From NCBI GenBank assembly GCA_021785405.1, contig JAJYFF010000002.1:1-64000 (forward strand): a stretch of 64,000 bases of DNA, read 5' to 3'. Shown here in pieces: positions 5,923 to 7,268 of the stretch (the stretch's first letter is position 1; every line of letters starts with the position of its first letter). The notes under the pieces are model-generated. The model was not told the DNA's origin, searched no databases, and was given only the letters and a program-made list of their open reading frames with translations. This DNA comes from Pseudomonadota bacterium. GTDB taxonomy: Bacteria > Pseudomonadota > Gammaproteobacteria > Steroidobacterales > Steroidobacteraceae. Position numbers and translations under genes: made by a program.

Positions 5923-5998
5923 GGGCCGTTAGCTCAGCTGGTAGAGCAGTTGACTCTTAATCAATTGGTCGTAGGTTCGATCCCTACACGGCCCACCA
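5923..5998 (+). tRNA. tRNA-Lys(CTT)
   Basis: Acceptor GGGCCGT/ACGGCCC, anticodon CTT, encoded CCA. Confidence 0.95.
5966..5998 (+). repeat. attL-like 33-bp direct repeat (3' end of tRNA-Lys)
   Basis: TGGTCGTAGGTTCGATCCCTACACGGCCCACCA, exact copy at 7236-7268. Confidence 0.9.
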
Positions 5999-6127
5999 AT
6001 TGCCCCTTCTGTGTCAGAGCCTTGTACGGCGCCTCGACGTCGATCAAAAGCCGCATGGTGCCAATGACGGGCCCATTGCCGCGCTGACGCTGTCAGTTCG
6101 GTCGGACAGTTATGGCACACTGCGCGA

Positions 6128-6814
6128 GTGCAAGAGTTTCGCCCGCATCTGGAAATTCTCCCCGCCGCGCAGCAGCGACTGTGGCTGGAATTATCGGCGG
6201 TGCCAGATCAATTCGTGCTCTATGGCGGGACGGCTCTTGCACTTCATCTGGGTCACAGAACGTCCGTTGATTTCGATTTCTTTGTCCGGCGTCCACTGCA
6301 GCCTGCGGAATTGGAAGTCGACATCCCGTTTCTTGCAGGGGCAAAAATTGTTCAACGCGAGAAAAACACGCTGACCGCGATCGTGGTCCGGGGCGAACCG
6401 ATCAAGGTATCCTTTTTTGGCGTGCCGAATTTGCCGCAGTTGCAGCTTCCGCATGTCGTCACGGAAAACAATCTCAAGGTTGCCTCGCTCCTGGACCTGG
6501 CCGGCACCAAGGCGTCCGTAGTCCAGGTTCGCGCCGAAGCCAAGGACTATGAGGATATGGACGCCCTCATCAGAGTTGGCAAGCTCAGCCTGCCCACTGC
6601 ATTGGCTGCAGCACAGGGTCTGTACGGCCCAGAATTCAATCCTGAAGTCACACTAAAAGCGCTGTCTTTTTTTGAAGACGGCAATCTGGTCGATTTGCCG
6701 GGTGACTTGAAGCTACGCCTGGTTGCTGCGGTACGAGCGGTGGACCTGGACCATCTGCCGGTTCTGCCGGCCGGCTCGCGGCGAGCCCGTCCCGGCAATG
6801 ATCTCGCACCATGA
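6128..6814 (+). CDS. AbiEii/DUF1814-type nucleotidyltransferase (MenT/AbiEii toxin-like)
   Basis: FVLYGGTALALHLGHRTSVDFDFFVRRPL NTase signature, ..DLAGTKASVVQVRAEAKDYEDMDALI; GTG start. Confidence 0.85.
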   Translation: MQEFRPHLEILPAAQQRLWLELSAVPDQFVLYGGTALALHLGHRTSVDFDFFVRRPLQPAELEVDIPFLAGAKIVQREKNTLTAIVVRGEPIKVSFFGVPNLPQLQLPHVVTENNLKVASLLDLAGTKASVVQVRAEAKDYEDMDALIRVGKLSLPTALAAAQGLYGPEFNPEVTLKALSFFEDGNLVDLPGDLKLRLVAAVRAVDLDHLPVLPAGSRRARPGNDLAP

Positions 6815-7164
6815 ATCCCATCCCCGTTACGCCGCTGACCCTGGATCTCGCTAGGCGGATCATCTGGTTCGAACCACCGGAGGTTGCGCTTTCCGACCCC
6901 ATTCGCTTCATGGCGTACGCGATGACCTACGCACGTCACGAAGACATGCGGGAATTACGCCGCTACGTGTCGGACGACGACATTCGTGCAGCGCTCGATC
7001 ATGCGCCCGCCGGGATCATCGATCCGCGGTCATGGGCTTACTGGAACGCCAAGATGGGGCGATATCCGGCACCACCGCCGCCAATGCGCATGTTGGCTGC
7101 TGCACCTGGCTCCCAAGATCGAAAGTCGCGACGTCAGACACCGGAGGATTGGCGCGACAAATAG
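6811..7164 (+). CDS. Small partner protein of the NTase (antitoxin-like, possibly DUF6922-like)
   Basis: ATGA overlap with the NTase; ..RRIIWFEPPEVALSDPIRFMAYAMTYARHEDMRELRRYVSDDDIRAAL..IDPRSWAYWNAKMG. Confidence 0.6.
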   Translation: MNPIPVTPLTLDLARRIIWFEPPEVALSDPIRFMAYAMTYARHEDMRELRRYVSDDDIRAALDHAPAGIIDPRSWAYWNAKMGRYPAPPPPMRMLAAAPGSQDRKSRRQTPEDWRDK

Positions 7165-7235
7165 GGCGGCCAGAAGTGAGAAGAATTTCCTGTGCGATCG
7201 AACACCGCCATTGGAGCGGGCTTCTCCGAATCACC

Positions 7236-7268
7236 TGGTCGTAGGTTCGATCCCTACACGGCCCACCA
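7236..7268 (+). repeat. attR-like direct repeat (orphan tRNA-Lys 3' end)
   Basis: Exact copy of 5966-5998 with no upstream tRNA 5' half. Confidence 0.9.

Follow-up and report, generated by a model that had tools for sequence, protein, structure and literature searches.

The 1,270-bp block of DNA that follows the tRNA-Lys(CTT) gene in the window (the whole stretch of 64,000 nucleotides analysed here) is probably a stranded remnant of mobile DNA that targets tRNA genes; it resembles the cis-mobilizable elements (CIMEs). What was inserted into tRNA-Lys(CTT) was an integrative element or a single member of a tandem array of such elements, and the 3' end of the tRNA gene was rebuilt; we draw this conclusion because the insert is flanked by a repeat of the tRNA 3' end and a relative carries the empty site. 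Left behind are attL, a two-gene operon encoding an AbiEii toxin and its partner, and attR.

The target gene (5923-5998, forward strand; detected by ARAGORN and by Rfam with 73 bits) belongs to a Pro-Arg-His-Lys tRNA cluster at 5619-5998. Its final 33 nt (5966-5998) recur as an exact direct repeat at 7236-7268, with no further copy in the 2.92-Mb assembly even when up to 3 mismatches are allowed, and no other direct repeat of more than 13 nt encloses the two genes. Extended to 40 nt the repeat contains 2 mismatches, and extended to the anticodon loop it reaches 46 nt with 4 mismatches, which defines attR as a displaced tRNA-Lys 3' fragment at 7223-7268 (forward strand; 42/46 matches overall). 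The presumed attL/attB is the tRNA 3' end from the anticodon loop onwards (about 5954-5998), a boundary common to integrase-bearing islands and phage attP sites. All four mismatches lie within the leftmost 13 of the 46 positions, for which the probability under random placement is about 0.004; here the left part of attR, CTCCGAATCACCT, which precedes the 33 exact bases, matches at 9/13 positions and starts with the same C as the displaced fragments of relatives. Two of the four mismatches are within the anticodon-loop heptamer (CTCTTAA in attL versus CTCCGAA in attR).

The inserted unit is 5999-7268 or, equally, a segment shifted by one repeat length to the left. It holds just two overlapping genes, 6128-6814 and 6811-7164, and its non-coding inner ends measure only 129 nt (5999-6127) and 58 nt (7165-7222). 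No integrase was found among its open frames, there are no transfer genes, and the insert retains no integrase remnant, no excisionase and no conjugation gene that would point to a parent element. At 58.8% GC, compared with 70.3% for the window, the enclosed DNA ranks among the 3 lowest of 628 windows of the same size, and its foreign origin is supported by this composition. The preliminary description had already reported the exact repeat and its 40-nt extension, the roughly 1.27 kb of lower-GC DNA and the two overlapping genes without an integrase, all of which we recover; of the span that it gave, 5959-7268, the end stands, but the start does not, as 5959 falls inside the anticodon region.

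That this DNA was inserted, rather than trapped by a duplication of the tRNA, follows from the empty site that we were able to locate, as the preliminary description had suggested, in the congener G022: here a single tRNA-Lys is followed directly by the same downstream chromosome with no genes in between, and the window without 5999-7268 aligns end to end with this intact site (804 columns, 85.6%). An old tandem duplication of tRNA-Lys with the two genes caught between the copies is, accordingly, very improbable, even though such tandems exist in the family: in another genus, two full-length tRNA-Lys(CTT) genes lie 540 bp apart (L109, G036:C1, 4864-5479). That pair is a true tandem duplication and provides a contrast case to the window, where the repeat comprises only the 3' part of the tRNA from the anticodon loop, has the same boundary as the integrase islands and flanks an interval of foreign GC content. 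Upstream of the anticodon-loop start of attR, identity to the tRNA is 21/44, i.e. at chance level, and there is therefore no second tRNA at this end. Neither of the two circumstances named in the preliminary description as fatal to its reading, a tandem tRNA-Lys duplication or the presence of the genes in all relatives without the second fragment, holds. It is equally hard to credit that the arrangement is an artefact of assembling the metagenome bin. The assembly is a draft of 133 contigs, and contigs of three relatives (G015, G012 and G021) end exactly at the tRNA-Lys CCA; against this, synteny with G022 holds on either side of the insert, the contig that carries both flanks is 116 kb long, and the junction shows the expected biology.

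In other relatives the same site is filled. The congener G019 shares the right chromosomal flank with the window; ahead of this flank lie a tRNA-Lys 3' fragment and the gene for a 421-aa integrase with Phage_integrase and Arm-DNA-bind_3 domains. In G010, head-to-tail core copies are found as fragment pairs on two contigs, with adjoining integrases of up to 521 aa that are of a second type compared with that of G019, and AbiEi/AbiEii genes adjoin one of the core copies. The attL/attR geometry of a tRNA-targeted insertion, which had been proposed from the window by itself, is thus borne out by the empty site in G022 and the integrase-bearing islands in G019 and G010. In G009, a 3.6-kb block (L059, G009:C26, 5281-8961) with DUF2442, SIR2_2 and HEPN_AbiU2 genes and no integrase is located between tRNA-Lys and a displaced 3' fragment. 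The coexistence of empty, integrase-filled and integrase-less sites identifies this tRNA as an insertion hotspot of the genus. The displaced fragments of the relatives start at the anticodon loop (CTCTTAATCAATT...) and end at CCA, preceded by sequence unrelated to the tRNA, and most of 20 IMG/VR contigs with a 32-nt core hold a fragment that starts at the same anticodon-loop CTC. Repeats of the AGCGTACT type are present beside attR of integrase-bearing islands and are absent from the right inner end (7165-7222) of the window's insert.

Two further observations concern tRNA-associated intervals in these genomes. In L060 and L061 (G010:C97 and C65), pairs of tRNA-Lys fragments 13-17 kb apart surround catabolic genes (dehydrogenases, TonB-type receptors and a Rieske-type oxygenase, named by eye), with an integrase gene close by in each case, the integrases being closely related; these are apparently tandem islands. 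The interval between tRNA-Pro and tRNA-Arg in G021, considered as a second mini-insert, was rejected, since it holds ordinary genes and no att copy.

The first gene of the insert (6128-6814, forward strand) encodes a 228-aa AbiEii-family nucleotidyltransferase (Pfam PF08843, E=2.3e-14) that carries the GGT and DFD motifs of the family; the GGT..DFDF motif is invariant or nearly so across 28 homologues. Its predicted fold (pLDDT 92) matches the putative Helicobacter pylori nucleotidyltransferase 4ok0 and the toxins MenT4 and MenT1, and the protein is a probable type IV toxin with a MenT-like fold. The second gene (6811-7164, forward strand), the start of which overlaps the stop of the first as ATGA, encodes a 117-aa protein with a confident, all-helical predicted structure. 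It matches no family in Pfam, NCBIfam or PADLOC and no PDB entry by sequence or by fold, and a family profile search of the cassette yielded no match to the winged-helix antitoxin AbiEi. Judging from family, predicted fold and gene overlap, the two genes probably form a toxin-antitoxin pair, with the helical partner as the probable antitoxin or regulator. In L155, from 6001 onwards, a homologue of the partner is found with a C-terminal MNT-like nucleotidyltransferase sequence (GSRGRG..DSDFD, by eye).

A search of 84,980 species genomes for the helical partner returned 46 loci, which belong to Proteobacteria and Planctomycetes, with one record bearing the label Chthoniobacterales; in 28 of the 42 loci with sufficient room an AbiEii gene lies directly upstream. 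Among 98 relatives just 8 encode the partner. On plasmids the pair is nearly absent, one Acidiphilium record having both genes, and the partner is absent from INPHARED phages. In two IMG/VR contigs (L196, 2922-3886, and L195) the pair sits within a prophage structural region, flanked by portal-like and protease/capsid-like genes (named by eye). Judged from these sequence distributions, AbiEii and its partner constitute a conserved, patchily distributed, mobile operon. Several of its loci adjoin tRNAs: in G009 (L149) the pair follows the tRNA-Gly 3' end at a distance of 122 bp, in L154 its distance from the tRNA-Pro 3' end is 43 bp, both loci being without a detectable second tRNA fragment, and a broken, pseudogenised copy lies near a tRNA-Pro 3' fragment in G030 (L197, G030:C74, 9913-11100). 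By eye, genes resembling those of PIN-domain toxins and of mobilisation can be recognised around L197. Elsewhere (G010:C79) the pair has no tRNA nearby; it is therefore cargo of varied carriers. Indeed, its presence at loci without att copies, such as G010:C79 and the tRNA-Gly locus of G009, shows that its spread does not depend on an att-flanked carrier, and the two genes might have come separately, e.g. by homologous recombination between the flanks, into the scar of an older, decayed island that had left attR. We regard this separate arrival as improbable, because the two genes leave little of the att interval over and are bracketed by no other direct repeats.

A more serious alternative to a stranded remnant, although still an unlikely one, is that the insert is a minimal non-autonomous cassette that is still mobile: an attP with two defence genes, moved in trans with an integrase from a phage, satellite or island that resides in the same cell. 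The compactness of the unit, with so little non-coding sequence at its ends, would be expected of a true minimal cassette just as of a remnant. If the integrase-less block of defence genes that G009 carries at this tRNA is taken together with the AbiEii pairs at other tRNAs, one might see in them a class of small cassettes and not separate events of decay, and the chance of finding two 3'-facing tRNAs within 300 bp among the 46 loci is roughly 0.01-0.02, with the distance chosen post hoc, when the data had already been seen. However, the tRNA-Gly and tRNA-Pro loci lack the second tRNA fragment, and no mover could be matched to the insert. The preliminary description had called for a genome-wide search for an integrase fitting the att core, and none that is cognate to tRNA-Lys was recognised in the genome itself: its tyrosine recombinases comprise two Xer-type proteins and two phage-type proteins beside tRNA-Leu and tRNA-Cys, with one further weak match, and as candidate movers those four were rejected, being at most about 30% identical, in partial alignments, to the integrases of the tRNA-Lys islands.

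The ends of the insert are likewise without a counterpart. Compared with 23 congeners, the inner ends 5999-6127 and 7165-7222 gave only chance-level hits, with no match elsewhere in the genus; compared with 20 other inner ends at tRNA-Lys, they showed no significant likeness (best single p 0.015), whereas several of those 20 resemble one another. A TCA...CTTG motif 16-18 nt inside attL that by eye seemed common to other elements was unsupported by a shuffle test. The left half of attR (CTCCGAATCACCTGGTCG) has no copy in 395 other genomes of the order or in IMG/VR. Finally, the two presumed crossover loops are mismatched. For a tyrosine recombinase that crosses over in the anticodon loop, non-identical overlap sequences such as those of attL and attR would hinder excision. 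Given crossover in the T-arm instead, the left part of attR may be the diverged attP of the element itself. The lack of an integrase in the insert and of a recognised cognate recombinase in the genome, the unmatched ends and the differing attL and attR favour a stranded remnant over present-day mobilisation in trans. Of the two origins that had been left side by side in the preliminary description, the decayed island is therefore the better fit, and the element mobilised in trans is less supported.

How the remnant may have arisen can be outlined from its relatives. By analogy with their islands, the inserting agent would have been a tyrosine integrase. The part encoding it would have been lost later, either through an internal deletion or when a neighbouring element that carried the integrase was excised by way of two att copies. 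As suggested by family, fold and operon structure, the surviving operon would probably encode a nucleotidyltransferase toxin restrained by a co-translated helical partner, and its output may be phage defence or stabilisation of the element. Renewed movement would be expected only if an element with a tRNA-Lys-specific integrase integrated beside the insert or supplied the integrase; with attL and attR mismatched, such movement would be less likely still.

The tRNA-Lys locus offers a clean case, as an empty site, integrase-filled sites and a second integrase-less defence block are all found at one tRNA. Candidates without an integrase or shorter than 2 kb are rejected by Islander, a catalogue of tRNA islands (PMC4383910). 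Att-flanked integrase-less units as small as this one are thus not counted in it, and it gives no measure of how common they are or of how they contribute to defence genes staying in genomes. The operon, for its part, is a candidate toxin-antitoxin or phage-defence pair that recurs in Proteobacteria and Planctomycetes with a partner that has no curated family. A bolder reading, which we hold to be doubtful, would be that the tRNA 3' ends of the family host minimal integrase-less defence cassettes, with the AbiEii pair and SIR2/AbiU2 at tRNA-Lys and further AbiEii pairs at tRNA-Gly and tRNA-Pro as examples; resident phages and islands would supply the integrases that move them in trans, and island catalogues would miss them, with AbiEii and its partner as an unrecognised toxin-antitoxin system.

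Set against known systems, the operon resembles the AbiE type IV toxin-antitoxin and MenAT nucleotidyltransferase systems (PF08843; PMC10435456, PMC7725324) in having an AbiEii-domain gene in a two-gene overlapping operon and a nucleotidyltransferase fold that matches MenT1 and MenT4. It differs from them in gene order and antitoxin: the AbiEii half of AbiE is present without the AbiEi half, and the partner is downstream, all-helical and of no known family. With Islander-type islands the insert shares a regenerated tDNA and a displaced 3' fragment, which are correctly ordered and oriented in the window and have a boundary of the anticodon-loop type, but it is excluded by two of the Islander filters, having no integrase and falling under 2 kb. 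CIMEs are elements that have lost their integration and transfer genes and kept attL and attR (PMC5704250), and both of these defining features, retained att sites and absent integrase and transfer genes, are found in the insert. The likeness extends to the target, a tRNA 3' end, and to the location, a site at which related elements with integrases are found and are arranged in tandem. The insert departs from CIMEs in comprising just 1.27 kb and two genes, in containing no relic of an integrative and conjugative or mobilizable element (ICE/IME) and in having attL and attR that differ at 4/46 positions. On balance, these comparisons suggest a small stranded relic and not a mobile element of a new kind.
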